Source of the DNA: Saprospiraceae bacterium
GTDB lineage: Bacteria; Bacteroidota; Bacteroidia; Chitinophagales; Saprospiraceae
NCBI GenBank assembly: GCA_016787345.1
Contig: JAEUUU010000131.1
Location: 1 to 45,650 of the forward strand
Reading direction: 5' to 3'
DNA: 45,650 nt
Numbering within the stretch: position 1 is the stretch's first letter; every line of letters starts with the position of its first letter. The notes beneath the pieces were generated by a model. It searched no databases, had not been told where the DNA came from, and was given only the letters and a program-made list of their open reading frames with translations. Shown in pieces: positions 6,759 through 40,650 of the stretch. The position numbers and the translations under genes were made by a program.

Positions 6759-9700
6759 TCATTTTATTTTTATCAGTGTTTTCGTACTCAGCGACCCGCT
6801 TTCGCCGAGCAGACGCAGCTGCATCATACCGGCGGGCAGGTCCGACAGATCGATCGTGAATTGCTCCGTACCCTGCGCGATCCGTTCGTTCCGGATCAGG
6901 CGACCGCTTGCATCGTACAGGAACATGCCGACCTGTTCGGGCAAGGCTTGGGTAAAGCGCAGGACGGTTTGGTCGCTGGCCGGATTGGGCGCCAGCACCC
7001 AGCCGGCCAAAAAGTCCGGTTCGGCAGCGTCGGAAATATTGTTGATGATCACGATGGAAGGCCCGGAGAGCGAGCAACCGTTGGCGTCGGTCAGGATGAG
7101 CTGGTAGGTGCCGACGTGGAGGCCAGTGAGGTCTTCCGTGCTGGCAAACGGCGCTCCATTGCGCAGCCAGTTGAAGGTGTAGGCCGGCGTGCCGCCGCTC
7201 ACGGTCACCGAGATGGCGCCAATACCCTGGTCGTTGATGTCCTGATCGACGTCGTCGATGCCGATGTTCAGGGCATCCGGGGCATCGAGGATAAACGAGA
7301 ACTCGGCGGAGCATCCGGTGATATCGGTGATGGTTGCCGAATAATCGCCCGCGCACAGTGCGGTGAGCGACGGCGTGCTGTTGCCATTGCTCCATTGAAT
7401 CGCGAACGGCGCCCCTGGTCCATTGATATTCAGGGAAATAGAGCCATTGCAAAGGCCGGCACACGTAGGCTCGCTCACATTCGTGGATACGATGAACGAC
7501 TCATCCACCTGAACCGTAAAATGGCAGGTGCCTGTATTGCCCGAAGGGTCTGTTGCCGTGAACTCGATGGTGGTTGCGCCCAGCGGGAAATCGGAACCCG
7601 AAGGCAAGCCGGCGCTCAGCACCGGTGCGCCGGTATCGCAGTTGTCCAGCACGATCGGCAGGCTGTACTCGACCGTGGCATTGCACAGGCCGACTACGAG
7701 ATCGTCGGGACAGATCAGGGTAGGCGCGATATTGTCGACAATCGTGAGCACAACGCTTTGCTGGGCGCTGTTACCGCTGTTGTCGGTGGCGGAGAGGGTG
7801 ATGACGTGTTCGCCCAGTCCGGAGCAATCGAAGTCTGTTTCGCTGAGGGTCCAGTTGATCGCATCACAGTTGTCGGAGCTCCCGTTGTCGAAGTCGGCGG
7901 CGGAAACCTGAACGGTGCCGTCGGCTCCGAGTGCCACCGTTGCATTCTGGAGGAGCAGCACCGGCGCCTGGTCATCGGCAGATTCGATTACAAAACTCAA
8001 CACTTGCGAGCAGCCCTGGCCGTCGGTTATGGTCGCCGCGTAGTCGCCGGGGCACAATCCGCTCAAATCAGCGGTATTGGCGCCGGTATTCCATTCGATT
8101 CCGTAAGGCAATGCACCGCCGCTGATATCGAGACTGATACTGCCATCGCAGCTCAGGCCGCAGGCTGCAGGCGCCGATTGTGTCGCCACGGCCAGCGGCG
8201 GCGATACGGTGACCGTGAAACTGCAGGCGCCTGAATTGCCGGCAGCGTCGGTGTAGGTGAAAGATTGAACCGTTTCACCGGTCGGGAACACCGAGCCGGA
8301 AGACAAACCGCTTTGTTGTACGAGTTGGCTGGGCACGACAGCGCAGTTGTCGGTAACCACCGGTTGCGCGAATTGCACCGTCGGTTGGCAGGCGCCGGTG
8401 GCGATATTGGCCGGGCAGTTCAGCGTCGGGGCGGTATTATCCACGATGGTCACGATGGCGGTCCCGGTGGCGGAATTACCGTTGACGTCGGTTGCCGTCA
8501 GGGTGACGACGTGTTCGCCCAGTTCGCTGCAACCGAAGCTTGACGGGCTTACTGTGAGGCTGGCCAGGTCGCATTCGCCGTCGGCGGTGCCCGAATCGAA
8601 CAGATCTGCGCTGAACGCTGCGATACCATTGGCATTGAGCGCTACGGAGGCATTGTTCAACAGCAGCAAAGGCGCCGTTTCGTCGGTTGCCGTGATGCTT
8701 TCACTGAAAACATCGGTGCAACCGTTGGCATCGGTAGTGGTCAGCGAGTAGACATTCGGACCCAAATTGTTAAGGCTGTTCGATGTGCCGCCGTTGGACC
8801 AGGCATAAGTATACGGACTGTTGCCGCCGCTTACCGCTACGCTCAGGGCGCCGCTCAGGTCATTGGCGCACAGTACATTTTGCTGGCTCAAGAGGGTGGT
8901 TGTCAGAATCTGGGGCGAGCCGATTTGGGCGGATACAAATACCTGGCAGCCGGCGGCGTCGCTTACCGTAAGGCTGTATGCGCCGGCAGCAAGGTTTTGG
9001 ATACTCTGCGTCGTTGCGCCGTTGCTCCATGCGTAGCTGATCGCTCCGCTGGCGCCGCCGACATTGGCCGTGGCAGAGCCGTTGATATTGCCGAAGCAAC
9101 TAACAGGGGTGGTCAGTACTAATGCCGACAAGGCACAAGTCGATTCATTGATATTGGCGATGCCTGTGGCGGTGCAACCGTTTGCATCCGTGGCGGTAAA
9201 CGTGTAGGCGCCCGGTGCAAGGTTGGATATCGAGGCCGTGGTGGCATTGGTGCTCCAGAGGTAGTTGTACGGCATGGTACCGCCAAGCACGCTTGCCGTA
9301 GCAGTGCCGTTGTTGGCATCGGGCAAAGTTTCGGGAGTTGCCGCGATACTGACGCTCAAGGCAGTCGGCTCCCCGATCGTTACCGAGGCAATGGCCGAAC
9401 AGGCTGCCTGATCGGTTACCGTGACGGCGTACACCCCTGCGCTGAGGTTGGAAGCCGCGGCCGTTTGGGCGCCGCTGGACCAGTTGTAGAAATACACCAG
9501 GGTGCCGCCACCCGCCTGTACCGTGGCCGAGCCGTCGCTGCCGCCGTTGCAGCTGGCAGGCTGGCTTTGAGAAATGACAGCCGTCACAGCCGAGGGCAAA
9601 CTCACCTCAACTTCATCGGTCGCCGTGCAGCCGTTGGCGGTGTTGGTCACGAGAAGCGTGTAAGTGCCGGCAGCATCCACCCTGGGCATTAATGAATTTT

Positions 9701-12700
9701 GGCCAATGACGATGTTACCATCGAGCGTTGTCCAGCTGTACGTAATCTGGGGGCCGGTGGAAGAACCGATGCCGTTCAGGGTCAGGAAACCGGTCTGGCA
9801 GCTCAATGGCTGGTCGGCGCCGGCATAGGCCGTGGGCGGAATGGCATTCGACTCGACAAAGGTGAGCGTCGTATTGGTACAGCCGTTTACCGGGTGGGTT
9901 ACCGTAACGGAATAGATGCCGGGCTGGGAAACCGCCGGATTTTGCAGGTTGGAGCTAAACCCGTCGGGGCCCGACCAGGAGAACCCGGCGCCGGTCGGCG
10001 TTGCCGTGGCATTGAGCGTGACGGTCGTTTGCAAACAGGTCAGCGTACCTGCCGGCGGAGCACTGACGGTAGGCGGGGTAATATTCTGCGAAACGAGCGC
10101 CGATACGGAGTTGGTGCAGCCGTTGGCCGGGTTGGTGGCGACCAGCGAATAGGTGCCGGGCTGGCTGACCAGTGGATTCTGTGCCGTGGAGCTGAATCCG
10201 CCGGGTCCGATCCAAAGGAAAGTCGCATTAGCTGGCGTCGCGCTGGTCATGATGGCGATTTCCGGCTGGCTGCAGGTCAGAACGCCTGCCGAAGCGGTCA
10301 GGGTCGGGGGCATGGTATTTTCCTGCACGACTGCCGTGGCCGTCCCGGTGCAACCATTTACGGGGTGCTGAACGGTCAAAGTGTAGGCGCCTGGGTTGCT
10401 GACAACGGGGTTTTGCTCGCTGGATACGAACCCGTTGGGGCCAACCCAGCTGAAACTCGAACCCGGCACGGAAGAATTGCCGTTCAGCGGTACGCTCACG
10501 CTCACACAGGTAATCGAGCCAAAAGCCGTCGCCGTGGCGAGCGGGAGCGTCAGGTCGGCTTCCACCACCGTGGTGTCGTAGGCTGTACAACCGTTGGAAA
10601 GATCGGTGAGCGCGAGATAATATTCACCCGGCTCATCCACTTCGGGGGTAGCCGTATTTGCTCCGGAAATAATGTTGCCCTCGTTGGTCGACCAGGCAAA
10701 TTGCAAGGACCCGCTGCCGGAAGAAGCCGAACCGTCGAGTGAAACCGTGGGCGCGGCGCAGGTTAGCAAACCGTTGGGGCCGGCGAGGGCCTGCGGTGCG
10801 GTGGTGTTGAGAGCAACGATTACATTGGAGGTGTTAGCGCAATTGCTGAGCGTATCGATAATGGTGAGCGTATAGGTTCCTACAGCATCTACCAGAGGAT
10901 TCAAGGTGCTGTCGCCGCTCACGATGTTGCCGTCGGCAGTGGTCCAAAAGTAAATCGCATCGGGTCCCGCATTGGAAACGGAACCTTCCAGGGTTACTTC
11001 GGTGATGGAACAAGTCAGGCTTTTGTCCGGGCCCGCCTGCGCAACCGGCGCAGTGCTCACCACGGTGACCGATGCCGAGGCGGTACAGCCACTGGGCAGG
11101 TAAGTGACCGACAAGGTATACAGACCCGGTTCGGTTACAACCGGATTCAGATCGGAAGACGCAAATCCGTCGGGGCCGTCCCACGCGTATTCAACATCAT
11201 CGGTCGGGTCTACGCTGCCCGACAGCGTTATTTCGGTCAAATCGCAGGACAGGGTGTCGCTGACGCTCGCTTCGGCAAGCGGCTGGGTCGTTTCGATACC
11301 GACCACGGTTTCATCGGTGGCGGTGCAGCCGTTTTCGAGGTTAAAAACCGTCAAAACATAAGTCCCGGCGGCATCTACAAGAGGCGAAAGTGTGCTGTCT
11401 CCTGAAAGAATCTGCCCATCGGCAGTCGACCAGGCGTAGGCAAATTCATCGCCCTGGGTCGATCCGCTGCCGTCGAGTTCGAGCGAAAGCGTCGTGCAGG
11501 TGATCAATTGATCGCCACCGGCATCGGCGACCGGCAAGGCGAAGTCGCCTTCGACTACCACCGTATCGACGACAAAGCAGCCGTTGTCGATATTGGTGAC
11601 GGTGAGGAAATATTCGCCGGCCACGTTCACTTCCGGGCTTTGTTCAAATGATTCAAAGTCGCCGGGCCCCGACCAGTAAAAGCCGCTGGCTACGGCAGTA
11701 TCTACTTCCACACCGATGAGGAGCTCGGTTTGGCTGCAATCCAGCGTTCCCCCGAAGGTGTAAAGGATGGCCGGCAAGCTGGTATCTGCCGTAATCAGGG
11801 CGGTGGTGTTGACGAAACACCCCGTCAGCGTATCGGTAACGCTCAGGATATACGATCCCGGGTCGCCGATTTTCGGCGCGGGCAGATTGGAACTGAATCC
11901 GCCGGGGCCTTGCCAGATAATCTGGGTGTTGAGCGTATCATATTGCGCCGTGAGCGTCAGGGAGTCCTGAAGGCAGTTAAGCGTATCGGCGCTGGCCAGT
12001 GCCGAGGGTGGGGTGTTGAGGCCGGTCACCACGATGGTATCGCTGGCCATGCACCCGTTTTCCGTATTTTGAATGGTCAGCACAAAGGTGCCGGTGTGGT
12101 CGAATACGGCATTCAGCGACGAAGCGCCGCTAATCAGGTGCCCACCGTTGATGGCGAGCCATTGGTATGTATAACCGGGGCCGGTTGAACCGTCGCCGAA
12201 AAGAGTATCGACCGTATTGGTGCACGACACGGTGATGTCGTCGCCCAGGTCGACGAAAGGCGGAACGGAGTCCACGCTGACCGCGGCTTCCGCTTCGGCC
12301 GTGCAGCCTGTGAGGGTGTTGGTGACGAGTAAATGATACAAGCCGCCGCTGCCCACGTAAATAACCACAGAATCGGGGTTCGACAGGATTTGGCCGTTGG
12401 CCGTCGTCCAGGCATAACTGATATCGGGGCCGCTCGTCGACGCTTCGCCGCTCAGTGCGACAACAGCATTGGCGCAATTGATCAGGGCGTCGGCGGTAGC
12501 CGCTTGCGGGTATTCAGTTGTCAGCGTGACGTCGAGCGTTGCGCTGCAGCCATTCAGGTCGGTCACGGTCACGTTGTAGGTTCCTTCTCCGACTCCGGTC
12601 AATTCAGGGGTGGTATCGCCCGTATTCCAGATAAATTCATAGTCCGGCGTGCCGCCCTCGGCGCTCACGGCGATGAAGCCCGGATTGCCCAGGCAGTCGG

Positions 12701-13064
12701 GCGGAGTGGCGATGTCGGCAGTGACGACGATAAGTTCAGGGCCTTCCACTTCGATACCGTTGAGCGAGCTGGTTTCGCCGTTGGCATCGGTGACGGTGCA
12801 GCTGTACACGCCTGCTGCGATACCCGTCAGGTCTTCGTTGGTATCGCCATTGCTCCACAGAACGGTGTAGGGAAGTTCAGCTTGTTTGACGGTGATAAAA
12901 ATTGCGCCGTCGGTGCTGCCGGAGCAGCTGGCGGGCTGGATGTCGTCGATCAGGATTTCAGGTACAAAATTCGGTTGGGATGAGGATGGATGAATGGGTG
13001 AGCGGGAGAGGTCGGTTTGGCTGATCCCGGAGATCAGCAATAGGGAATAAAACCAAAGGATCAT
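6759..13064 (-). CDS. Giant multidomain surface adhesin (SprB, Ig/PKD-like and HYR-like repeats) with T9SS type A sorting domain
   Basis: 2101 residues from ATG 13062-13064; an in-frame TTG two codons earlier is possible, and a TAA at 13098-13100 closes the frame. The N-terminal hydrophobic stretch MILWFYSLLLISGIS is a short signal sequence lacking the usual positive charge. Order of domains: two SprB-type repeats (PASCSGSTDGAI..., VLWSNGDT); twelve Ig/PKD-like repeats of about 85-95 residues, each with an early LTC/ITC cysteine and a late NGCTA cysteine and of two sorts (W-TTADGQILSG... and W-GPDGF-S...NP); four SprB repeats; two HYR-like modules (NTAPTLNCPANIA, TDNC) alternating with further SprB units; and a type A sorting domain (VLAPNPASDQTVLRF... 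to LIKIK). The paired cysteines suggest one disulfide per Ig module. It should be exported by T9SS to the cell surface and act in adhesion or matrix formation. Upstream lies an array of TTTAA half-sites. Confidence 0.93.
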   Translation of the reverse strand: MILWFYSLLLISGISQTDLSRSPIHPSSSQPNFVPEILIDDIQPASCSGSTDGAIFITVKQAELPYTVLWSNGDTNEDLTGIAAGVYSCTVTDANGETSSLNGIEVEGPELIVVTADIATPPDCLGNPGFIAVSAEGGTPDYEFIWNTGDTTPELTGVGEGTYNVTVTDLNGCSATLDVTLTTEYPQAATADALINCANAVVALSGEASTSGPDISYAWTTANGQILSNPDSVVIYVGSGGLYHLLVTNTLTGCTAEAEAAVSVDSVPPFVDLGDDITVSCTNTVDTLFGDGSTGPGYTYQWLAINGGHLISGASSLNAVFDHTGTFVLTIQNTENGCMASDTIVVTGLNTPPSALASADTLNCLQDSLTLTAQYDTLNTQIIWQGPGGFSSNLPAPKIGDPGSYILSVTDTLTGCFVNTTALITADTSLPAILYTFGGTLDCSQTELLIGVEVDTAVASGFYWSGPGDFESFEQSPEVNVAGEYFLTVTNIDNGCFVVDTVVVEGDFALPVADAGGDQLITCTTLSLELDGSGSTQGDEFAYAWSTADGQILSGDSTLSPLVDAAGTYVLTVFNLENGCTATDETVVGIETTQPLAEASVSDTLSCDLTEITLSGSVDPTDDVEYAWDGPDGFASSDLNPVVTEPGLYTLSVTYLPSGCTASASVTVVSTAPVAQAGPDKSLTCSITEVTLEGSVSNAGPDAIYFWTTADGNIVSGDSTLNPLVDAVGTYTLTIIDTLSNCANTSNVIVALNTTAPQALAGPNGLLTCAAPTVSLDGSASSGSGSLQFAWSTNEGNIISGANTATPEVDEPGEYYLALTDLSNGCTAYDTTVVEADLTLPLATATAFGSITCVSVSVPLNGNSSVPGSSFSWVGPNGFVSSEQNPVVSNPGAYTLTVQHPVNGCTGTATAVVQENTMPPTLTASAGVLTCSQPEIAIMTSATPANATFLWIGPGGFSSTAQNPLVSQPGTYSLVATNPANGCTNSVSALVSQNITPPTVSAPPAGTLTCLQTTVTLNATATPTGAGFSWSGPDGFSSNLQNPAVSQPGIYSVTVTHPVNGCTNTTLTFVESNAIPPTAYAGADQPLSCQTGFLTLNGIGSSTGPQITYSWTTLDGNIVIGQNSLMPRVDAAGTYTLLVTNTANGCTATDEVEVSLPSAVTAVISQSQPASCNGGSDGSATVQAGGGTLVYFYNWSSGAQTAAASNLSAGVYAVTVTDQAACSAIASVTIGEPTALSVSIAATPETLPDANNGTATASVLGGTMPYNYLWSTNATTASISNLAPGAYTFTATDANGCTATGIANINESTCALSALVLTTPVSCFGNINGSATANVGGASGAISYAWSNGATTQSIQNLAAGAYSLTVSDAAGCQVFVSAQIGSPQILTTTLLSQQNVLCANDLSGALSVAVSGGNSPYTYAWSNGGTSNSLNNLGPNVYSLTTTDANGCTDVFSESITATDETAPLLLLNNASVALNANGIAAFSADLFDSGTADGECDLASLTVSPSSFGCSELGEHVVTLTATDVNGNSATGTAIVTIVDNTAPTLNCPANIATGACQPTVQFAQPVVTDNCAVVPSQLVQQSGLSSGSVFPTGETVQSFTYTDAAGNSGACSFTVTVSPPLAVATQSAPAACGLSCDGSISLDISGGALPYGIEWNTGANTADLSGLCPGDYAATITDGQGCSQVLSFVIESADDQAPVLLLQNATVALGADGTVQVSAADFDNGSSDNCDAINWTLSETDFDCSGLGEHVITLSATDNSGNSAQQSVVLTIVDNIAPTLICPDDLVVGLCNATVEYSLPIVLDNCDTGAPVLSAGLPSGSDFPLGATTIEFTATDPSGNTGTCHFTVQVDESFIVSTNVSEPTCAGLCNGSISLNINGPGAPFAIQWSNGNSTPSLTALCAGDYSATITDITGCSAEFSFILDAPDALNIGIDDVDQDINDQGIGAISVTVSGGTPAYTFNWLRNGAPFASTEDLTGLHVGTYQLILTDANGCSLSGPSIVIINNISDAAEPDFLAGWVLAPNPASDQTVLRFTQALPEQVGMFLYDASGRLIRNERIAQGTEQFTIDLSDLPAGMMQLRLLGESGSLSTKTLIKIK

Positions 13065-13158
13065 GGGCAATCGAGTTTTTGTGTGCGTTCCGGCGGATTA
13101 ATCCGGGCGCACTTTTGAACATGGGAAAATTGGATTGAAATGCGGAAAAATTGCGGCG

Positions 13159-22631: not shown

Positions 22632-22727
22632 AGGCGCAGCTCTGCCCGAAAACACTGATATTTAATCCTTTAACCATGAACATCGCGTTGCAGTTTCCCG
22701 GCTGCGTCGCATTTGACCTCCATCAGT

Positions 22728-25700
22728 ATGAAAAACCGGTTACGCATCCCCCCACGGGCGCTACCCGTATTGCTGGCCTTGGTGATCTCCACCTTTGCTT
22801 ACAACCTGTCTGCCCAGCAATCGGCTTTCACTTTTTCGTATCCGGGGCCCAGTATGATCGGGGTAGGGCCTAATTGCAGCGTTACGCTGGCCGGCAGCGT
22901 GGGTACGCCAATTGTCAACTCCACCGTGGGCGCCACGATTACCCAATCCGAATTCGATCCGGATATGTCCGGTTTTCAGTTTACCGACGAATGGACGCCG
23001 GGCGTGACCCTCATCGTATGGTGGAAGGTGGGCGACAACCAGGGCAACATGGCGAATTTCAGCTTTACCGTAACGATCAAAGACCTGACGCCGCCGGAAT
23101 TCGACCTGACGGGCATGAGCAATCCATTCGTGGTCAATTCCATTACCCAGGTGCCGCCGGCGCCTGATCTGCCGGTGAGCGACAACTGCACGTTTTCCCA
23201 GAATTTGATAAAAACATTTACCCAAACCACGCCGCCGGCTATTTGCCAGGGCGGTTCGTTTACCCGTACCTGGACGGCTACCGACGAAGTGGGCAACCTG
23301 GCGGTTTTTACCCAAAACATCATTGTTTATAAAGATACCCTGCCTCCCCAGGTGCTTGTGGTGCCACAAAACGGCTCGGCGCCCTGTTCGCAATTGCCCG
23401 GCGCCTACAATACTTGGCTGAATGCCCAGATGTCGGCGTTCTTTGCCACTGATGCCACCGGGCCTGTTGTGTATAGCAACACAGCACCGAATCCGTATCC
23501 TGCCGGTTGTATCCAGCCGTTGACCATCACCTTTCGGGCAACCGACCAATGCAACCTCCATACGACACAAACCGTCGTGTTTAACAGCGCCGACAACCAG
23601 GCGCCGGTGATTGTGCAGGATGCGCAGGACCGGGTAGTGGCCTGTTCCCCGCCCGATAACAATCACCTCGATCAACTGGCCGACTGGATACACGACAAGG
23701 CGGGTATTATCGCCGTCGATTCCTGTCCGGGCCCGCTGACTTATACCATGCAGGTAAACGGTCAGGCGCGCGACTCCGCCGGAGTGGTCAATGACTTTTT
23801 GGCTTCGTTTGCCAATGGCTGCGGATTTCAATTTCTGGGCAGCCAGACCTACGCCCAGGTGAGAGGTTACGTGCGGGTCGACTGGTTTGTGGCCGATGCC
23901 TGCGGACCGCCCACTTTTGCCGGTCAGGGCGTTTTCGGCGCCATCGATACCGTGCCGCCGCAAATCATCGGGCCGGCAGTGACCGACGAACAATGCGGCA
24001 ACAGCAACGTGCTTGCCCTGCAATCCTGGGTCGAAAACTACGGCAACGCGACCCTCGACGATGATTGTTCGACACCTTCGTGGGAGGCCGACTTTACCTG
24101 GATCACCGACAATGGCCAGACGGGCGCCGGGACCATCGGCGTGGGCCCATACCCACAACCGCCCGCGCATGATTGCAACTGGTGGGTCGATGTGACGTTC
24201 AAAGCCTCCGACGACTGTGGAAACGACACCACCCGCGTGTTGCGATTCCGGATCATCGACAACCTGCCGCCGCTCATTTCGGGTGTGCCGCCGACTGATA
24301 CCGTTTATTGCCCCGCCGCGCTTCCCGCACTTTTTCCCGGTACAGCCATCGACAATTGCGACCTGAACCCCACTGTAGTGCGTACGGTGGCTTATCAGGA
24401 TACCGTTTGCGCGGGCAACTACACCGCTTTGGTGACCTGGACGGCCACCGACGATTGCGGCAATTCCGCTGCTTTTACGCAGCAAATTTTTGTTCAGGAC
24501 ACGGTTCGCCCGGTATTTACCCTGGTCCCCCCGGCCGACACATTCCCTTGCTACAATCCGGCCTTGCCACCTTTGCCGCAAATCGGGGTAGACCTGATCG
24601 CAACGGACCCCTGCGGCCAGATCGATACCCTGTTTATCACAGAAACTTCGACGCAGAACCCGGATCCGGGCGTCTGCGCACATTTCACCTATACCGTCAC
24701 GCGCACCTTCACCGCTTACGACCAATGCGGCAACAGCGCCACCGCCAGCCAGTCATTTTTGATCATCGACAACCAGCCGCCGGGTTTTACGGGTTTTACC
24801 GACACGGTGCTGGTGTGTGAAATACAACCCTTGACGCCCCCGCCCGCGGCTTCCGATTTGTGCAGCGGCGTGTTGGGTTCGCCCGAGTTGTTCGATCAGA
24901 TTTTCACCGGCGGCTCCTGCGCCGACTCCTACACGCTGACGTATATCTGGCGGGTATCGGACGTATGCGGGAATACGGTTTTTTTTGAACAAAACCTCAA
25001 TATTCAGGATACGGTAAAGCCGACTTTGAACGGCGTGCCCGCGCCGGTTTTTGTCGAATGCGACGCGATTCCCGCTCCGCCCGACAATCTGGTGGCCAGC
25101 GATAATTGCGATGAAGCTCCCGAAATTACATTTCTGGAAACCGAACTTCGCGATCCGAATCCGGCCAATTGCGCGCACTGGACCAACTACATGATTCGCC
25201 GCGAATGGACCGTGACCGACAACTGCGGCAACAGCCGGGTGTACACCCAAAATATCAGCGTGCAGGACAATACCGGTCCGGTAATCGTGCCGCAGGATTC
25301 GGTCGCGCGGCCCAACGAACCCGGCTTGTGCGGCGCCACGGTCTCGGTGCCTACACCGCTGGCTTTGTACGACCGTTGTACTTCGATCGACAGTACGATA
25401 TTACTCCAGTCGACCGTCACCCTGAAAAACACCTCCGGCTTGCCGCTCAACAGCAGTCCGGTCGATACGGTCGTTTTTTCCTGGCCCTCGCCCAACCTTC
25501 CGCCCAATATGCCGGTCGTGGGTTCCGCCACCCTGACTATTCAACTGGAATCGGTCGACGCCGAGTCGGCCGGGGAGTTTTTTACCATTTTGGGAGAAGA
25601 CAATTATCCGCTGGGCACGACCATGCCTACGGATGCCCAATGCGGCAATGGCACAACGACCATCACCATTTCCGAAGATTTGTTGAACAACTGGCTTACC

Positions 25701-28700
25701 GACGGCACGCTCACCCTCAAACTGGCGCCCTTTGGTACCGGCGCCACGGCGATCAACCTGGTGTGCGGGGGCGGTAAAGCGAAGGCGCAATTGGGCTACG
25801 TCATGGCGGTGCAGCAAATTCCGCCCGTAGTCAGTTTCAGCGTCAATGGCGGTCCGCAACAACCTTATCCGCCGGCAACGGGTTTTTTCCTGCCGGTGGG
25901 TCTGCATACGATAACGTATTATGCCCAGGACTGCGCCGGCAACCAAAGCAGCGCCTCCACCACGCTCGAAGTGGAGGACCTCGATCCGCCGGCCATCGTG
26001 GCGCCGGCCGCGCAAACTGCGTACGTCAGCAGCGGCAATTGTTCAGCCAATGTCACCCTGCCTTTTCCAGGTTTATCGGACAATTGCGGTTTTTCCGGCG
26101 ATATCGAGCGGGTATCCGATCAGGTTTTGGTGCAATTTGAACAAGATCCGAATGCCGGCTGGATTCCCCAAACCACAACATTGACCATTAATTCGCTGAT
26201 TCCGAATGCCGTGACGGGCGGTGTTTTGAAAATTCGCCATCGCGGCGACAACAGCCAATCGGGTGAGTTTTTTGAAATTTTTGATGAAAACAACGTTTCC
26301 CTGATCCCGGCTACCAATTACGGTACGCCCGCCGGAGAATGTTCAGCGTTTAACGAAACCACCCTGAATGTGTCGGCTGCCCAGATTAACAGCTGGGCCG
26401 CCAACCAATCGGCTTCATTTATTCTGGTTCCCAACAACGACGCCGGCAGTTACACGGATTTTATCAATAATTGCGCCCCGCTCAACGCCTCGAATTTCGA
26501 TGGCATCAGCGCCCTGGAAGCGAGCCTCAGTTACAACTTCGCCGTGGTAAATTATGAAATACTCAACAGCGGAAACCTTCAGGTGGCAGCGGGCCAGCTG
26601 ACCGGCGCCAATACCCAGGTGAGTCTGCAACCCGGTGTGTACACGGTTATTTATTCCGTTGTGGATGCCGGTGGAACGCCCAATTCGGCGCAGTTTACCC
26701 TGACCGTCAGGGATACCATCGATCCGGTGGCGGCCTGTACGCCGACGACTATTTTTACCAACCCTTCCGGCGCTGTCAATTATACGCTGCAACCCTCCGA
26801 GATCAACAACGGCAGCACGGACAACTGCCCCGGTAATCTCAGTTACTCCGTTGCGCCCTCCAGTTTTAATTGCAATCAGGTGGGTACGCCCGTTTTCGTC
26901 ACCTTGACCGTCACAGATGCGTCAATGAACGTATCGACCTGCACGACGCAGGTGAATGTGCAAACCATGAGTTTTCAGCCGACGACATCCGGCAACGTCT
27001 GCGAGGGCGGTATGGTATCGCTGTTTGCCAATCCGCCCGGCCCGCCCAATATTGTGTACACTTATCTCTGGAAAAAGCCCAACGGCTCGAACTGGACGAC
27101 GATGGCAAATCCCACCATTACGAACGCCACTTTGGCTGATGAGGGGGTTTATACGGTCATTATCACCGGCCCCACGCTGTGTACCGCGGTGGGTTATGTG
27201 AATGTCGACCTGATCAACCTGCCGGGTACGCCCACTGTGACAACACCCTTGCAGTCGGTCTGCGAAGGTCAAAACGTGACGCTCAGCACTTCGGTTTATC
27301 CGGGTTCCAATGTTACGTACCAGTGGTATGAAGTGACGCCGAACGGCAATGTACTTTTGTCTACCACGACGCTGGCTTCTTACACGGTGGTGCAACCTTC
27401 GGTGGGCAATCACCAGTATGTGATGCAGGTTTTTGCCAACAATTGTTCGTCGAACTTCTCTACACCGCTGGCCGTCACAGTCAATGCCCGGCCGGTAGCC
27501 AGTGTTTCACAGGCGGCCATTTCCATTTGTCAGGGCCAGCCGCTCAGCTTGGGCACTCCGGTGCAAGGGGTTACCTATGCCTGGACGGGGCCGGCCAATT
27601 TTACCAGCAATCAACAGTTTCCGTTGGTGACTTCGAGCGCCGATATGATTCACGAAGGAACTTATTCGCTGGTGGTCACACAGTTTGGCTGCTCCTCGCT
27701 TCCGGCGACAGTGTCGGTCGATATACGGGAAAAGCCGGCTACGCCGCAATTATCGGGCGCTTCGGCCATTTGTACCGGCGGTACGGTGACCCTGACGGCC
27801 ATCCCGACCATGGGACAATTCCAGTGGATAGCGCCTGATGGCGACACGGTTTTTACGGGTATTAATCAGCTGATATTGTCGAATGTGATGCCGGCCGATT
27901 CCGGCGCCTGGCGGGTGCGTATTGTTCAAAACGGTTGCGTCTCGGATGCTTCGGCGCCGATTTTGGTACAGGTTCAAAATTACCCCCAGGTGACGGCCAG
28001 CCAGGCTGCGCCGCTTTGTCAGGGCCAGCCATTGCCTTTGCAGGCCACTTCAGACAATTTGAATGTCACATACAGTTGGGTGGGCCCCGACGGTTTTACA
28101 GCCGGCAATATTCCCAACCCGGTCGATCCGACGCCGGCTTCCGGTACGTACACGGTCACGGCCACGACCTCATTCGGCTGTTCCGCATCTTCGAGCGTAG
28201 CCGTCACGGTGGTGACGCCCCCCACGGTGGTGGTGACCAATACTGCTCCATTGTGCGCCGACGGTACGATGAATGCGCAGTTGCAATCGATCGTTTTTTC
28301 GCCGAATACGCCGTTGTTCTATTCCTGGACGGGCGGCCCGGGCGGTACGTTCTCTTCTTCCGACCCCAATCCGGTTATTCCGGCGGTTTCGGAGGCCAAT
28401 AACGGATCGTACATGCTTGTGGTGACCGATAATTTTGGCTGTAAATCAGTGCCGGCTACCACGGTGATCGACGTAGAAAATGCGCCTATGGTGCCCATTC
28501 TGGCGCCCGTCGGTGCAGTTTGTGAAGGCGGAACGATCATTCTGACCATTACGAATCCGAGCAGTTTGCCGGGAATCAGTTATATCTGGCAAACGCCCAA
28601 TGGCACCTCCACGGTGACCAGCCAGCCATCCCTGGTGTTCCAGAATGCGACGATGCAGAACAACGGCACCTATTCCGTTTATGCGACCACTTCCACTTGC

Positions 28701-30602
28701 GCTTCGGCCCCTTCTGCGTCGGTCAACGTAATCGTCAATGAATTGCCCGATGCACCGCTTATCACCACGCTGAACGCCACGCCCTGCGAGGGCGATAGTT
28801 TGTGGCTCATCGGTCCGGCCGGTTTCGACGGTTATCAGTGGACGGGCCCCAATGGCCTGACGGCTACCATACCCAGCCCGGTTTTTCCCGGCGTCGACAG
28901 TATGATGCACACCGGTCTGTACCGCTTGCGTGTGATGGACAACAACTGTTTTTCGCCGTACAGCGAACCCCTTGAAATCGTGGTGCGCAAACGACCCAAA
29001 CAGCCCGTTGCCCTGGCTGCGGAGGCGGTTTGTCTGGATCAGCCCGATGTACTGCAACTGCAAATTACAGTCGCTTCGGCGGAGCCCGGCGCGCAATTCA
29101 CCTGGTACGACGCCGGCAGCCAGCAAGCCCTGGCGCCGCCGACTTTTTCCCATTCTGTTCAGATCACCGATTTATCGGGTTTCAGTGCCGGAACGCATAC
29201 GATCTATGTGGTGGCTACCGAAAACGGCTGTTCTTCCACCTCAACGCCGATTACTGTCAATTTCGATGAAGCGCCCGGCAACACCGCTTTTGCCGGCGAC
29301 AGCATTGCAGCTTGTAACAATCAGCCGATTTTTCTGAATGCTACGCCGCCCTTCCCGGGCATAGGCCAGTGGTCGCAAATCGCCGGCCTGCCTGTCACCA
29401 TCGCCAATCCGGCAGCCAACAACTCCCAGATTATCGGCGGCGTGGCCGGGGTGCATTATCAGTTTGTCTGGACCCTCTCCGCCGGCGCTTGTAAAAATTA
29501 CAGCAGCGATACCGTATCCCTCACCATTACCCAACCCGAACAAGCCCAGGTACTGGCGGCGTTTATCGACACCTGTTTTTCTACCTGCGCCGAATTGCAC
29601 GCCGTGCAGGGGCAAAACGTCAGCGGTTACTGGTGGCAGGAACCCAATCAGGCCGACCTCGGTTCGGTGATCCTTGATCCCACCAATCCGCACACCACGG
29701 TCTGTGGCCTTCAGGCCGGCGCTACCTGGATATTTTTCTGGACCCTCGACAACGGCGCCTGCGGCCTGTCGCAGGCCAAGGTGGAGGTGCGCACTATCGG
29801 AAGCGAAGCTTATGCGGGGCTTGATCGAAGTTTTTGCAGCAACGACTCCTGTTTTGTGCTGCAAGCCGCCGATATCGGCGAATTTGAAACCGGGGCCTGG
29901 ACCAGCCCGAACAACCCGGGCATCACGTTCTCCAGTCCAAACCTGGAAACAACCGTGGCTTGCGGCCTCCAGGTTGGCGACAACCTGTTTGTCTGGACGA
30001 CCAATGGCGGTTTCTGTGGCGACCGCTCGACCGATTCCGTCATCGTGCATTATGAAATGACGCCCACCACGCTGCCCGATACGATCACGGTACCCTTCGG
30101 AACGACCTTGCCTCTCAATATTCTCGACAACGACAATTTGCCCGATCAATACCGTCTGGAAGTCGTGATCTGGCCCCAGCAAGGAAGTTTTGATCAAAAT
30201 ACCCTGTTTTATCAACCCGACCTGGATTTTGCCGGAGCGGATAAACTGCATTACAGGATTTGCAACCTCAGTTGCGTGGGCGAAGGCGCGTGTAGTGGCG
30301 AAACGGTCGTCATCCTGAACATCGAAGAAGCCAAAGGCTGCGGAATACCCACCCTGATCACGCCCAACGGCGACGACTACAACGACGAATTTTTTATCCC
30401 TTGCCTCAAGGATTTCCCCGACCATGAAGTCACGATCTTCAACGTATGGGGTGATGAGGTTTTCCATGCGCAACCTTATGACAACCAGTGGCAGGGCACG
30501 TACAACGGCGAACCCTTACCGGCCGGCACCTACTACTTTGTCGTGCGGTTCAATAACGAACCAGACGGTATAAAAACCGGCTTTTTAATCATTCAACGCT
30601 AA
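22728..30602 (+). CDS. Giant T9SS type B surface adhesin (HYR-like and Ig-like repeats, gliding-motility-type C-terminal domain)
   Basis: 2624 residues from ATG 22728 (a TTG five codons earlier is less likely). Signal peptide MKNRLRIPPRALPVLLALVI... ends near AYNLSAQ. Residues 75 to about 860 hold HYR-like modules built on the pattern D-x-x-PP...SDNC...TW-x-ATD-x-CGN...F-TQ-x-I-x-VQD. From about 860 to 1330 come two copies of a beta-rich unit with ESAGEFFTI / QSGEFFEIFDENN and a following ITISEDLLNNWL-type segment. From about 1400 to 2100 are Ig-like domains (VCEGG..V.L...YTYLWKKPNG..., DEGVYTVIITG). Near 2440-2530 is a cadherin/Big-like unit (LPLNILDNDNLPD). The end, ITPNGDDYNDEFFIPCL to GIKTGFLIIQR, is the CHU_C/T9SS type B sorting domain. 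Type B cargo is known to need a PorP/SprF-like partner, and one follows after 6 bp. Confidence 0.94.
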   Translation: MKNRLRIPPRALPVLLALVISTFAYNLSAQQSAFTFSYPGPSMIGVGPNCSVTLAGSVGTPIVNSTVGATITQSEFDPDMSGFQFTDEWTPGVTLIVWWKVGDNQGNMANFSFTVTIKDLTPPEFDLTGMSNPFVVNSITQVPPAPDLPVSDNCTFSQNLIKTFTQTTPPAICQGGSFTRTWTATDEVGNLAVFTQNIIVYKDTLPPQVLVVPQNGSAPCSQLPGAYNTWLNAQMSAFFATDATGPVVYSNTAPNPYPAGCIQPLTITFRATDQCNLHTTQTVVFNSADNQAPVIVQDAQDRVVACSPPDNNHLDQLADWIHDKAGIIAVDSCPGPLTYTMQVNGQARDSAGVVNDFLASFANGCGFQFLGSQTYAQVRGYVRVDWFVADACGPPTFAGQGVFGAIDTVPPQIIGPAVTDEQCGNSNVLALQSWVENYGNATLDDDCSTPSWEADFTWITDNGQTGAGTIGVGPYPQPPAHDCNWWVDVTFKASDDCGNDTTRVLRFRIIDNLPPLISGVPPTDTVYCPAALPALFPGTAIDNCDLNPTVVRTVAYQDTVCAGNYTALVTWTATDDCGNSAAFTQQIFVQDTVRPVFTLVPPADTFPCYNPALPPLPQIGVDLIATDPCGQIDTLFITETSTQNPDPGVCAHFTYTVTRTFTAYDQCGNSATASQSFLIIDNQPPGFTGFTDTVLVCEIQPLTPPPAASDLCSGVLGSPELFDQIFTGGSCADSYTLTYIWRVSDVCGNTVFFEQNLNIQDTVKPTLNGVPAPVFVECDAIPAPPDNLVASDNCDEAPEITFLETELRDPNPANCAHWTNYMIRREWTVTDNCGNSRVYTQNISVQDNTGPVIVPQDSVARPNEPGLCGATVSVPTPLALYDRCTSIDSTILLQSTVTLKNTSGLPLNSSPVDTVVFSWPSPNLPPNMPVVGSATLTIQLESVDAESAGEFFTILGEDNYPLGTTMPTDAQCGNGTTTITISEDLLNNWLTDGTLTLKLAPFGTGATAINLVCGGGKAKAQLGYVMAVQQIPPVVSFSVNGGPQQPYPPATGFFLPVGLHTITYYAQDCAGNQSSASTTLEVEDLDPPAIVAPAAQTAYVSSGNCSANVTLPFPGLSDNCGFSGDIERVSDQVLVQFEQDPNAGWIPQTTTLTINSLIPNAVTGGVLKIRHRGDNSQSGEFFEIFDENNVSLIPATNYGTPAGECSAFNETTLNVSAAQINSWAANQSASFILVPNNDAGSYTDFINNCAPLNASNFDGISALEASLSYNFAVVNYEILNSGNLQVAAGQLTGANTQVSLQPGVYTVIYSVVDAGGTPNSAQFTLTVRDTIDPVAACTPTTIFTNPSGAVNYTLQPSEINNGSTDNCPGNLSYSVAPSSFNCNQVGTPVFVTLTVTDASMNVSTCTTQVNVQTMSFQPTTSGNVCEGGMVSLFANPPGPPNIVYTYLWKKPNGSNWTTMANPTITNATLADEGVYTVIITGPTLCTAVGYVNVDLINLPGTPTVTTPLQSVCEGQNVTLSTSVYPGSNVTYQWYEVTPNGNVLLSTTTLASYTVVQPSVGNHQYVMQVFANNCSSNFSTPLAVTVNARPVASVSQAAISICQGQPLSLGTPVQGVTYAWTGPANFTSNQQFPLVTSSADMIHEGTYSLVVTQFGCSSLPATVSVDIREKPATPQLSGASAICTGGTVTLTAIPTMGQFQWIAPDGDTVFTGINQLILSNVMPADSGAWRVRIVQNGCVSDASAPILVQVQNYPQVTASQAAPLCQGQPLPLQATSDNLNVTYSWVGPDGFTAGNIPNPVDPTPASGTYTVTATTSFGCSASSSVAVTVVTPPTVVVTNTAPLCADGTMNAQLQSIVFSPNTPLFYSWTGGPGGTFSSSDPNPVIPAVSEANNGSYMLVVTDNFGCKSVPATTVIDVENAPMVPILAPVGAVCEGGTIILTITNPSSLPGISYIWQTPNGTSTVTSQPSLVFQNATMQNNGTYSVYATTSTCASAPSASVNVIVNELPDAPLITTLNATPCEGDSLWLIGPAGFDGYQWTGPNGLTATIPSPVFPGVDSMMHTGLYRLRVMDNNCFSPYSEPLEIVVRKRPKQPVALAAEAVCLDQPDVLQLQITVASAEPGAQFTWYDAGSQQALAPPTFSHSVQITDLSGFSAGTHTIYVVATENGCSSTSTPITVNFDEAPGNTAFAGDSIAACNNQPIFLNATPPFPGIGQWSQIAGLPVTIANPAANNSQIIGGVAGVHYQFVWTLSAGACKNYSSDTVSLTITQPEQAQVLAAFIDTCFSTCAELHAVQGQNVSGYWWQEPNQADLGSVILDPTNPHTTVCGLQAGATWIFFWTLDNGACGLSQAKVEVRTIGSEAYAGLDRSFCSNDSCFVLQAADIGEFETGAWTSPNNPGITFSSPNLETTVACGLQVGDNLFVWTTNGGFCGDRSTDSVIVHYEMTPTTLPDTITVPFGTTLPLNILDNDNLPDQYRLEVVIWPQQGSFDQNTLFYQPDLDFAGADKLHYRICNLSCVGEGACSGETVVILNIEEAKGCGIPTLITPNGDDYNDEFFIPCLKDFPDHEVTIFNVWGDEVFHAQPYDNQWQGTYNGEPLPAGTYYFVVRFNNEPDGIKTGFLIIQR

Positions 30603-37903: not shown

Positions 37904-38722
37904 CTAGTACTGTTCGGCATCGCTGGGAAAATTGCGCGCTTTTACGTCGGCGATGTAACGTTTGGTGGCGTCTTCGATGGCGTCGAACAACTCGAGGTAA
38001 CGCCGCAGAAAACGCGGTTTAAACTCCTTGGTGATGCCCAGCATATCGTGCGTTACGAGCACTTGTCCGTCGGCGTGTTGCCCGGCGCCGATGCCGATCG
38101 TCGGGATTTCGATACTTTCGGAAACGTCTTTGGCCAGTTGTGCGGGTATTTTTTCGAGCACCAGGGCAAAACAGCCCAGTTGGTCGAGCAGGCGGGCATC
38201 GTGACGCAGTTTTTCGGCTTCCGCTTCTTCTTTGGCCCGCACGGTATAGGTGCCGAATTTGTAGATGCTTTGGGGCGTGAGGCCCAGGTGCCCCATTACC
38301 GGGATACCGGCGTGCAGAATGCGGCGGATGGATTCCTCCACTTCCGAACCGCCTTCGAGTTTGACGGCGTGCGCGCCCGATTCCTTCATAATGCGGATGG
38401 CGCTCGACAGGGCGATTTCCGAATTGGACTGATAGCTGCCAAAGGGCAGATCGACCACCACCATCGCCCGGTTGACGGCCCGGACGACCGACTGTGCATG
38501 GTAGATCATCTGATCGAGCGTGATGGGCAGCGTGGTTTCGTGGCCGGCCATGACGTTGGAGGCCGAGTCGCCTACCAACAGGATATCGATACCGGCTTCG
38601 TCGAGTATCCGGGCCATGGAAAAGTCGTAGGCCGTGAGCATGGCGATCTTTTCGCCGCGATTTTTCATGGCCTGGATCACGTGGGTGGTCACGCGTTTGA
38701 TCTCTCCGGTAGTAGCAGACAT
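37904..38722 (-). CDS. panB: 3-methyl-2-oxobutanoate (ketopantoate) hydroxymethyltransferase
   Basis: 272 residues from ATG 38720-38722 (four more residues if 38734 is used). It makes ketopantoate from alpha-ketoisovalerate and 5,10-methylene-THF, the first committed step of pantothenate and CoA synthesis. Family motifs: [29 protein letters not shown] with the metal-binding Asp, [29 protein letters not shown] and [18 protein letters not shown] with the catalytic Glu/Gly loop nearby. Length is normal. The - strand small-RNA terminator (38779-38805) ends just upstream, so panB must have its own promoter; TACCTTTC at 38759-38766 is a 7/8 -7 match. Confidence 0.97.
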
Positions 38723-38778
38723 GATTCGGAACAAATGGGTTGTGTACGGAATACGGCCGAAAGGTAGGTCCTAAAAAT

Positions 38779-38805
38779 AAAAAAACCGCGCCTCGTTCGG
38801 CGCGG
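38779..38805 (-). terminator. Rho-independent terminator of the downstream small-RNA unit
   Basis: On the - strand, ACCGCGCC-GAACGA-GGCGCGGT followed by TTTTTTT. It stands 57 bp upstream of the panB ATG and terminates no protein gene. Confidence 0.8.
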
Positions 38806-38907
38806 TCGTAAAACAACAAATTATAATCCCATGAACATTTCGAGTGAAGGTGTTCCGCCTTGGCAGAACGGCGTTTTTTGGAGAAATCAGAGGTAAAACG
38901 GGTTATT
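38779..38907 (-). ncRNA. Candidate small RNA, downstream copy of a tandem pair
   Basis: Read on the - strand: a 7/8 -7 box AAACTTTG (38914-38921), a hairpin GTTCTGCC/GGCGGAAC (38852-38869), the motif ATGTTCATGGGATTATA (38822-38838), a 16-nt spacer, then a GC-rich hairpin CCGCGCC/GGCGCGG (38786-38805) with a run of seven T. The upstream copy has the same order of parts and the same motif and spacer length, with otherwise unrelated sequence. The motif could also be read as a 5-residue peptide MFMGL followed by TAA. The ends are inferred. Confidence 0.5.
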
Positions 38908-38959
38908 CAAGCACAAAGTTTTACCCAAACAAGCCTTAACAAATCATTCGTCAATCCTG

Positions 38960-39074
38960 AAAAAATGTTGGCAAGTCACCCCACTTTCGGTGAGGCGACT
39001 TGCCCTCTCACCTGAATTTGTATAATCCCATGAACATATCTCTTCGGCGATAATTCTTTAATCACCGCCTTTTC
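38960..39074 (-). ncRNA. Candidate small RNA, upstream copy of a tandem pair
   Basis: Read on the - strand: TTG (39109-39111) and -7 box CACTTTTG (39081-39088) separated by 20 bp; a GGTGAT/ATCGCC hairpin (39046-39066); the motif ATGTTCATGGGATTATA (39021-39037); a 16-nt spacer; a hairpin of about 16 bp with a GAAA loop (38970-39004); then AACATTTTTT. The motif and spacer length equal those of the downstream copy. Read as a peptide it would be MFMGLYKFR-stop (39008-39037). Confidence 0.5.
38966..39004 (-). terminator. Strong terminator hairpin of the upstream small-RNA unit
   Basis: GGCAAGTCGCCTCACC-GAAA then GTGGGGTGACTTGCC on the - strand: about 16 bp with two G-U pairs and a GAAA loop, then AACATTTTTT. 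Confidence 0.8.
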
Positions 39075-39089
39075 ACGATACAAAAGTGC

Positions 39090-39332
39090 AGTGGACTTGA
39101 TCGCCTACCAATAACATTTTTTGCCGGTTGTGAATTTTATTCTATGAGGTTTTTAAACAAAATTATTTGTCTATAAAATTGACAATCAATTATTTGTGCT
39201 CTGAAAAAACAAAGGTTTTTCGAGGGTATTTGTGAAAAATAAAACATTTTTTAGGCGCTTTTGAGCATAAATATTTTTTTAAAAACAGGGAAAATACCGA
39301 AGCGGGGTAGGGGGAAAACCTGAGTAGTAAAA
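39090..39332. other. AT-rich non-coding stretch
   Basis: No frame here looks coding. The stretch is far richer in A and T than the rest of the window, with many A and T runs (for example around 39140-39280). It lies between the lipoprotein terminator and the small-RNA pair and may hold regulatory or protein-binding DNA; I see no clear motif beyond the promoter of the upstream small-RNA unit. Confidence 0.6.
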
Positions 39333-39400: not shown

Positions 39401-40456
39401 TTAGTTTTTAAAATTCAGCAGACCGACCGTCGGGTGGGTTGTCATCGAGTCGACGGTTTGGGTGGAGAAGCGGCAGCCGGTCAGGATTTGTTCGTTTTTA
39501 CCGGTCAGCAGGCCCAAGCCTTCGGAGATATTGGTATAGGTGGGTAGTACCTCGGCGCCGGTGATACCTTCGTTGGCATTGGCGGTGATCAGGTAGTTTT
39601 CAATTTCGCCGCCACCGCCTTCGAGCACCAGATCGATGCCTTCGAAGTAGCGGTAGCATCCGCCGCAGCTTTGGTCGGCGGGTTCGATATTGGCGGCGAG
39701 GAACTGGTAGAACTGGTTGGCCGAGATTTTGACCGAGCCGCGGTAACCAAATGGGCCGCCCGAGCCGCTGGCGTTGCGTTTTTGGTTGGTGAACACGGTC
39801 CAGGGGATTGTTTTACGGCTGATAAACTGGCCGCCGGGCGTTTGTTCGCGGTATTGCACCAGCATGGTCATGTTGAAGTACACGGCGTTTTGGTCGCAGC
39901 TCCACTCGAACGTGGTGGGCGCGCCGGGGCCGAAGGCAAGCCGGGGCGGAATTTCGATCTGGCTGGGCTTGTTGAAACGGAAGGCGCCGGGCAGGGTGGT
40001 TTCGGCCGTGATGTCGGGCTTGCCGTCGGCGCGCACCACTACCATGCGGTATTTTTCGCCTTCCTTCAGTTGTTGGTCGGCGTTGGCCGGTTTGTATTTG
40101 TAGAGCCAGTTGGGCTGGTTGGCAAAAAAACCGGAGTCGCGCACGAAACCTTCGAGGTTGCCGTCGACGCGGGACATCTGGTAGCGCTCGCCGGTGCTGA
40201 CGCGTTCGAGGAAAACGCTGATGGCGTTGGTGGGATAGTACAGCGAGTCGGCGATCTGGGCGATTTCTTCGGCACTTTTTTCAGGGTCGAGGAATGCTTT
40301 TTCAATCCGCAGGTAATGGGCGGTGTCTTTGGGCGACAGGATGCCGTAGCACACCGGAATTTCTTTCCAGGGGGCGGCTACTTCAAAATCATTGGAGCAG
40401 GCGGCCCAGAACAGCGCCGCGAGGGGAATCAGAAAAAACAACTTTTTCATGCGCAT
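39401..40456 (-). CDS. Lipoprotein of unknown function (DUF4249-like layout)
   Basis: 351 residues from ATG 40456 (MRMKK); ATG 40450 is equally possible, and codons further upstream are unlikely because they precede the signal peptide. MKKLFFLIPLAALFWAAC is a lipoprotein signal with lipobox W-A-A-C. The first 120 residues, with PVCYGILSPKDTAHYLRIEK and AISVFLERVSTGERYQM, resemble the Bacteroidota outer-membrane lipoproteins grouped near DUF4249, often found by TonB-dependent receptor genes, though none is here. A later CGGCYRYFEG segment holds a close cysteine pair. A -7 box TACTTTTG lies 31 bp upstream and a strong terminator follows, so it is monocistronic. The family assignment is tentative. 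Confidence 0.8.
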   Translation of the reverse strand: MRMKKLFFLIPLAALFWAACSNDFEVAAPWKEIPVCYGILSPKDTAHYLRIEKAFLDPEKSAEEIAQIADSLYYPTNAISVFLERVSTGERYQMSRVDGNLEGFVRDSGFFANQPNWLYKYKPANADQQLKEGEKYRMVVVRADGKPDITAETTLPGAFRFNKPSQIEIPPRLAFGPGAPTTFEWSCDQNAVYFNMTMLVQYREQTPGGQFISRKTIPWTVFTNQKRNASGSGGPFGYRGSVKISANQFYQFLAANIEPADQSCGGCYRYFEGIDLVLEGGGGEIENYLITANANEGITGAEVLPTYTNISEGLGLLTGKNEQILTGCRFSTQTVDSMTTHPTVGLLNFKN

Positions 40457-40486
40457 CAAATTCAAAGTAAGTGGGTCAAAGCCGCG

Positions 40487-40494
40487 CAAAAGTA
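40487..40494 (-). promoter_or_regulatory. Bacteroidota -7 box of the lipoprotein gene
   Basis: The - strand reads TACTTTTG, an exact TAnnTTTG, 31 bp before the ATG at 40456. Confidence 0.55.
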
Positions 40495-40606
40495 GGGCTT
40501 TGTTGGGGAGTGAGGAGAAAAAGACTTGCCAGAAGGAGACGAAAAGAGGGATTTTGTTGGGAGGGAGGATGCGTATGGTAATTGTATTCATCTCTTCTGT
40601 TTTCAA

Positions 40607-40650
40607 CAAAAAAGCCGTTTCATCCCGCACAAAGAGATGAAACGGCTTTT
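40607..40650 (-). terminator. Terminator of the atpDC operon
   Basis: AAGCCGTTTCATC (40612-40624) pairs perfectly with GATGAAACGGCTT (40636-40648), 13 bp with an 11-nt loop. On the - strand it ends in TTTTTTG; on the + strand it ends in TTTT. It lies 23 bp after the atpC stop. Confidence 0.85.

Follow-up and report, generated by a model that had tools for sequence, protein, structure and literature searches.

A conserved tandem RNA module in the Saprospiraceae, apparently an undescribed small-RNA family

Results

Organization of the array

The window, i.e. the whole stretch of 45,650 nucleotides that was analyzed (contig JAEUUU010000131.1 of assembly GCA_016787345.1, from a Saprospiraceae bacterium), carries two exact copies of the 17-mer ATGTTCATGGGATTATA on its - strand, at positions 39021-39037 and 38822-38838. 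No further copies with ≤3 mismatches were found in the window, and none of 100 shuffled windows contained two such matches. The array is flanked by panB (37904-38734, ketopantoate hydroxymethyltransferase) and by a gene at 39401-40630 with a weak match to DUF4249 below the cut-off. Because a separate terminator-like hairpin, read from the sequence at approximately 39375-39330, lies between the latter gene and the array, the array does not look like the 3' end of this gene. Elsewhere in the window, two very large open frames of 2103 and 2629 amino acids (6759-13070 and 22713-30602) appear by eye to be of the repeated secreted-protein type.

Each copy of the 17-mer is placed between a 5' hairpin and a strong 3' hairpin on the - strand, as a preliminary description of this DNA had stated. 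In module 1, the 5' hairpin (39046-39069, from folding and the hairpin script) is formed by GGCGGTGATT/AATTATCGCC with the loop AAAG. The 17-mer (39021-39037), a possible seed defined by motif search and family conservation, is followed by a 3' hairpin with a 15-bp stem in the fold (38970-39004). The six T of the T-run (38960-38965) begin 4 nt past this stem, for which reason the terminator may be leaky. In module 2, the 5' hairpin (38852-38869, from the hairpin script) consists of GTTCTGC/GCGGAAC with the loop CAAG, and the 17-mer, a possible seed on the same two grounds, occupies 38822-38838. The G+C stem of the 3' terminator hairpin (38786-38805) is directly followed by seven T (38779-38785), which close the array. 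The claim of a terminator with a T-run in each unit holds with reservation for module 1. The terminator hairpin of module 2 was found by folding, by the hairpin script, and by profile R2, which has no row from the window and matched positions 38778-38826 with an E value of 5e-5; no R2 match to module 1 was obtained at E 1 or better. Read from the sequence, 16 nt separate the motif from the G+C stem of its 3' hairpin in either unit, in agreement with the earlier statement, and the hairpin script, which adds two pairs to the stem of unit 2, gives 14 nt there. Apart from the motif and the architecture the two units are unlike, also as described before.

A full conserved promoter was found only at unit 1. 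It comprises the box TTCACAA (39128-39134, - strand) and the -7 region GCACTTTTGTATCGTGA (39073-39089, - strand), in which TTTGTATCGTGA begins at 39084, 50 bp from TTCACAA; the window thus fits the 50-bp TTCACAA-TTTG spacing described below. Transcription probably starts just downstream of the -7 region. At unit 2 the -7-like box is weak by eye and the upstream box is absent, which qualifies the earlier description of a -7-like box at each unit.

Array layout and promoter in relatives

For the comparison, 141 arrays were retained after removal of single chance matches (L006, L012, L044-L054, L064, L102, L109, and L127), duplicates (L001, L004, L007-L009, L055, and L056), and repeats; the set includes four viral loci (L057-L060) and the loci from L141 on. 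One copy was present in 43 arrays, two in 61, three in 26, four in 10, and six in 1, i.e. 98 of the 141 arrays are tandem (2-6 copies), with a median copy spacing of 161 nt. Some of the copies with 2-3 mismatches are probably spurious (e.g. the third place in L023 and L024). Among the 106 arrays with full flanks, 31 of which are single-copy, at least seven T in eight positions followed 84 of 106 last copies and 23 of 119 inner copies. T-runs thus mark last rather than inner copies, and a single terminator appears to close most arrays. The window pair, described before as two separate units, does consist of two modules and is better read as one transcription unit, since inner copies in relatives rarely have a strong T-run. 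Within an array, modules are mostly dissimilar beyond the core, in line with the earlier exclusion of a recent duplication; in some arrays (e.g. L033) they are nearly identical.

At 37 of 134 first units a TTCACAA-like box is followed by TTTG at a distance of exactly 50 bp, compared with 5 of 145 inner copies; the other 97 first copies did not fit this simple pattern. The 50-bp spacing was counted 38 times and every other spacing between 35 and 65 bp 0-4 times. In 1.59 Mb of genome G031 no peak at 50 bp was observed, and the pattern is therefore not a general promoter type there. The promoter box may represent a dedicated control site.

The upstream gene was co-oriented in 98 and opposed in 29 of the 127 arrays with a called upstream gene, and in the hosts most first copies were located >100 nt past the upstream stop codon. 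Downstream genes differed in kind and strand. A gene for a di-haem cytochrome c peroxidase (CCP_MauG) was present near 30 of the 141 arrays (e.g. L024:2-1135), often as the co-oriented neighbor on the upstream side; in 27 of its occurrences it lay directly upstream of the array. As other arrays have other neighbors, no link between peroxidase and array is claimed. The small lipoproteins encoded before the peroxidase gene presumably resemble MbnP; the lipoprotein fragment tested gave no Pfam match.

Conservation of the hairpins and the motif

Of 243 units, 94% had a 3' hairpin that scored beyond the 95th percentile of shuffles, and by this stricter score 28% had such a 5' hairpin. A test with fixed geometry gave a clearer result for the 5' hairpin: one of at least 5 bp ending 10-18 nt before the motif was found in 102 of the 243 units versus 16 in shuffles. 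The distance between this hairpin and the motif peaks at 13-17 nt, and AAAG and AAAAG are frequent loops.

The 3' stem covaries. This was determined on a second alignment, in which 37 last copies were lined up by their 3' stem. Double changes occurred in 8 of 8 pairs (shuffled mean 5.5; 8 reached in 12 of 500 shuffles) and in 56 cells versus 19.1 in shuffles, and the covariation score was reached by none of 500 shuffles. Shifting the pairing partner lowered this score from 0.60 to 0.07-0.23. Paired cells amounted to 89.9% versus 74.8% in shuffles, a share inflated by the choice of rows with a good 3' hairpin. On the first module alignment RNAalifold gave no pairs because hairpin lengths differ; model R1, which includes both window modules, is sequence only. 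With 223 units the portion of the RNAalifold output listed showed only part of the 3' stem and a small hairpin within the motif with AUGG in the loop. The latter was rejected, as by eye it is lost in 3'-end variants such as GGGATTACG.

The nearly invariant stretch is GGAUAUGUUCAUGGGAUUAUAAUUUGUU, with UUCAUGGGAU as its best kept part. In copies with 2-3 mismatches most variation falls at the 3' end of the 17-mer, and TTCATGGGAT is best kept. Conservation extends into flanks that were not selected by the search, with GGAT before the 17-mer (69-88%) and ATTTGTT after it (62-85%) in 62 units.

No Rfam 15 family reached its gathering cut-off in the window, consistent with the earlier statement that no named RNA family has this layout. 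Between 38700 and 39400 there were 11 matches, all sub-threshold and none of them FopS, which the Rfam set may not include. The motif sequence was not found in the open-licence literature, where no sRNA families of this group were among the matches listed; the main text of two ncRNA surveys did not mention the group.

Folding of the motif

Unit 1 folded far better than its shuffles (z -7.1), none of 200 being as good; the effect was smaller for unit 2, with a z of -1.95 and 10 of 200 as good. The motif lies between hairpins by architecture and had been described as unpaired. Thermodynamic folding gave this claim no support: some of the motif is base-paired in the minimum-energy fold of either window unit, and the mean unpaired probability of the core was 0.20 for unit 1 and 0.55 for unit 2. 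Over 245 modules it was 0.42 for the core and 0.47 for the 17-mer, versus 0.45 for the 17-mer with its letters shuffled in place; the 17-mer was more open than its own control in 146 of the 245. Folded in isolation, the motif has almost no structure (-0.7 kcal/mol). A clearly open motif is thus not what these folding models predict.

Distribution in genomes and viral contigs

The source genome carries the motif at three places with 5 copies, namely the window pair, a pair in contig C87, and a single copy in contig C76. A sixth copy with 3 mismatches follows approximately 350 nt on in C87, and a match in C140 looks like coding sequence. The preliminary description had named a lack of other copies in related genomes as a refuting result, and such a lack is clearly contradicted. 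The 17-mer was found with ≤1 mismatch in 171 of 199 Saprospiraceae genomes, compared with 4 of 199 for a reversed-pattern control. In 10 of the 28 negative genomes a sequence profile gave some match with an E value of at most 0.1. Three of these have clear modules (G178, G069, and G162, with ATGTTCATGGGATTACT, ATGTTCATGGGATTAAG, and AAGTTCATGGGATTATG), the match in G128 is doubtful (E 8e-5, four mismatches), and the remaining ones look like chance. A clear module is thus present in 174 of 199 genomes; the 25 without one include the doubtful G128.

In a sample of the phylum, the 17-mer matched in 5 of 6 genomes of the family and in 11 of 290 from outside it. All 11 matches outside the family were single copies and ten had one mismatch; the only exact one (L054) is by eye without a module, and six or seven chance matches were estimated for these genomes. 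A profile search of an order sample listed 12 of 13 family genomes as positive and none of 106 others (87 of these as a total only). Outside the family, phylum and order matches are near chance. In the named genome collection, 4 of the 80 titles among the matches listed clearly belong to other groups (Elizabethkingia, Chloroflexi, Peregrinibacteria, and Oscillospiraceae), each with a single copy. Saprospiraceae or Saprospirales make up most of the other titles listed, and the remainder include Lewinella, Phaeodactylibacter, Chitinophagales, and unspecified Bacteroidetes. An array is present in Phaeodactylibacter luteus (L084), a cultured relative.

Nineteen IMG/VR stretches contain the 17-mer, thirteen of which look like coding sequence by eye. 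In six viral contigs (L057, L058, L059, L060, L195, and L202) the motif is followed by a hairpin, each time as a single module; one of them, L058, has by eye the look of bacterial or prophage DNA. PHROGs identifies L060 as a tail operon (tail sheath, tape measure, and baseplate hub), and its motif lies 7 nt past the stop of a gene labeled both "major head protein" and "tail protein." In L202, where a terminase is present, the motif lies 8 nt past a stop and precedes a hairpin and a T-run, and in L057 it is located 11-15 nt past a stop codon, followed by a hairpin. L057 also encodes a viral protein (L057:291-722) with a long GYGDGD repeat tail that ends just before the motif. We infer that phages carrying the module infect Saprospiraceae. 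Among named phages, 39 of 50,697 records matched at E values up to 10, none of them over 80% of the query.

Pairing with translation starts and candidate helper proteins

Complementarity of the motif to start regions was compared with full shuffles and with shuffles keeping UUCAU, 60 of each. For 1143 predicted genes of G031, the top 3, 5, and 10 duplexes were matched by 0, 0, and 0 full shuffles and by 0, 1, and 3 UUCAU-keeping shuffles; for the single best duplex the counts were 0 and 3. The signal, which concerns few genes with predicted starts in one genome, fades with the top 20 (3 and 7 of 60) and the top 50 (9 and 16 of 60). In G057, a genome without a motif match and with a control set of half as many genes (574), 17-34 of 60 controls were as good for the top 1, 3, 5, and 10. 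In a mixed sample of 734 genes, which overlaps in part with G031, 1 of 60 controls was as good for the top 1, and 3 of 60 were as good for the top 5 and the top 10. Complementary start regions are thus mildly enriched in G031 and not in the motif-free G057.

The best duplex in G031 has 18 contiguous pairs over the start codon of L244:290 (-23.5 kcal/mol), the product of which contains a cohesin domain and a weak match to a sorting domain. Two other top candidates of G031 were rejected after comparison of orthologues, in which pairing was not kept. These were a HAD-like protein (29 regions, 31 of 100 controls as good) and a 610-aa protein that we take to be a 2-oxoacid oxidoreductase (27 regions, 19 of 100). 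In 0.95 Mb of loci, 45 complements to 11 nt of the motif were found, above all 20 shuffles (4-33). By eye they are largely degenerate array copies and repeats; three are near a possible ATG start, one of these inside the peroxidase gene.

Because rRNA was found in none of seven G genomes, E. coli 16S, 23S, and 5S rRNA and tRNA-Glu were used as stand-ins. No duplex stood out, with 20, 31, 3, and 4 of 40 shuffles as good, respectively, and pairing with rRNA was rejected on these stand-ins. The motif shares the 9-mer ATGGGATTA with E. coli 16S, for which approximately 0.2 occurrences are expected by estimate.

Hfq and CsrA were each found in none of ten genomes tested. An RRM_1 protein was found in eight of the ten, with G000 and G127 as exceptions; it occurs in G057 and G006, which are motif-free.

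Discussion

Judged from sequence, the modules form a real, family-wide, and apparently undescribed small-RNA family with an unusual tandem layout. Its kind, the multicopy sRNA, is known; the layout and the lineage are new to us. LhrC1-5 of Listeria are likewise multicopy sRNAs of one family, in another phylum and with a sequence other than that of the Saprospiraceae RNA. Sequence and comparison show the modules, their conservation, the covarying 3' stem, the promoter spacing, the array layout, and the phage copies; antisense action at start codons is plausible.

Our tentative preference is for a Saprospiraceae family of trans-acting sRNAs in which an extended seed would pair over translation starts. 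A promoter with its own upstream box would transcribe between one and four modules per array (six in a single instance). Each module consists of a 5' hairpin whose loop is often A-rich, a short linker of A and T, the nearly invariant stretch, and a 3' hairpin; the last hairpin of an array usually acts as the terminator. As an extended seed, the invariant stretch could pair through UUCAU with AUGAA and through its 3' part with A/U-rich leaders, and such pairing over the start region would block ribosome loading. Tandem copies may give dose or several seeds per molecule. As no recognizable Hfq was found in the ten genomes, any helper protein would have to be a different one, and the RRM_1 class is the first candidate. 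Besides conservation and covariation, the start-region enrichment in G031 and the precedent of GibS and FopS in Bacteroides speak for this reading. Against it stand the folding of the motif, the loss of pairing in orthologues of two top candidates, the fading of the G031 signal beyond the top 10, and the distribution of RRM_1, which occurs in motif-free genomes. Of the small RNA with a fixed seed proposed in the preliminary description, what is supported is a conserved RNA in which two hairpins enclose a fixed motif, the motif being a putative seed.

The arrays can also be described more broadly as a family-wide RNA regulator with invariant sites of 10-17 nt, two to six per transcript, a dedicated upstream box, and single phage-captured copies, acting as a multi-seed antisense sRNA or as a decoy for an RNA-binding protein in genomes without recognizable Hfq or CsrA. 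We consider this possible and put it forward with some reserve.

An invariant core of the length of the 17-mer also fits a protein-binding site. In CsrB and RsmZ several motif copies lie between hairpins in one RNA, and the Saprospiraceae RNA may similarly titrate or scaffold a protein, with the core as putative binding site and the modules multiplying the sites; with their single site, phages would then capture that protein or make use of it. We regard this as the less probable explanation, to be weighed seriously all the same. Several identical sites per array with few inner T-runs, a core that is invariant including synonymous sites, and single copies in phage contigs are in its favor, as are folding that does not favor an open seed and a search in which no conserved mRNA target was found (two candidates tested in orthologues). 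Against it, no candidate protein was found, nearly a third of the full-flank arrays have one copy, and complementary start regions are mildly enriched in G031. The Saprospiraceae motif is much longer than that of CsrB/RsmZ, and the absence of CsrA from the ten genomes, a further point against titration, means that the RNA is not CsrB itself.

It is improbable that the motif and hairpin form a 3'-end or processing element, recognized by a nuclease or a protecting protein that sets or guards RNA 3' ends. The positions shortly after stop codons in L060, L202, and L057 would suit such an element, whereas many host arrays are preceded by a promoter box, most host first copies are remote from the upstream stop, and the motif is repeated.

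Leader peptides (MFMGL, MFMGLYKFR, and longer) with attenuators, the second proposal of the preliminary description, are very improbable. The frame AUG UUC AUG GGA UUA UAA is open in most units, and the frame from the inner ATG stops after three codons in 208 of 276. However, the other 68 frames end elsewhere (one codon earlier in 3, later in 65), and none of the 62 copies with 1-3 mismatches has a change at the third position of UUC or GGA. Up to six tandem copies and the diversity of the downstream genes in kind and strand also argue against translation of the motif. Equally remote is a DNA element for recombination or protein binding, which would suit a strict tandem motif at several loci and in phage contigs but not its fixed orientation relative to promoter box and terminator, the covarying stem, the peaked spacing to the 5' hairpin, or the lack, by eye, of a recombinase in the 22 neighbor clusters listed.

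Under the preferred reading, the Saprospiraceae RNA has its closest counterparts in two sRNA systems of Bacteroides. The FopS family of Bacteroides thetaiotaomicron has 14 members (9 intergenic, 4 antisense, and 1 in a 3'-UTR) with a single-stranded 5' stretch. They act through a long single-stranded seed at start codons, repress SusC-like mRNAs, are bound by the RRM-1 protein RbpB, and have also been reported in a phage (PMC11697453). The two families come from one phylum, are multicopy, combine a conserved motif with a terminator hairpin, and occur in phages; they would share start-codon repression, here a proposed mode. In contrast to FopS, the modules described here are in tandem and often have a 5' hairpin, as both window modules do; the RNA is confined to Saprospiraceae in the samples searched, and its targets are putative. 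GibS pairs at start codons via a long single-stranded seed, in vitro without a protein co-factor, and is a single gene with two seeds, R1 and R2 (PMC7366714). An extended seed at translation starts would be common to both, whereas the one gene with two seeds of GibS is a different architecture. Hfq-dependent sRNAs differ in that Hfq was found in none of the ten genomes tested here.

sRNA networks in bacteria without Hfq are an open question, and to our knowledge there is little such sRNA work in Bacteroidota outside Bacteroides. The frozen core, its own promoter box, and the phage copies provide a concrete handle, with one sequence to probe and one core to mutate, and the natural genomes with (174 of 199) and without (25 of 199) the module allow comparison.

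Variant inner modules were observed in L097, L068, L113, L167, L168, L170, and L125. In these an insert splits GGGATTACG or GGGATTATG from a later GATTACAATTTG-like stretch, and they give the impression of a motif whose 3' half has shifted downstream. In L020, L021, L023, L024, L030, and L032 a recurring GATTGAGTTT...ATATA element precedes the second module. In some loci it is complementary to the motif-adjacent ACTCA, which suggests a longer-range helix.
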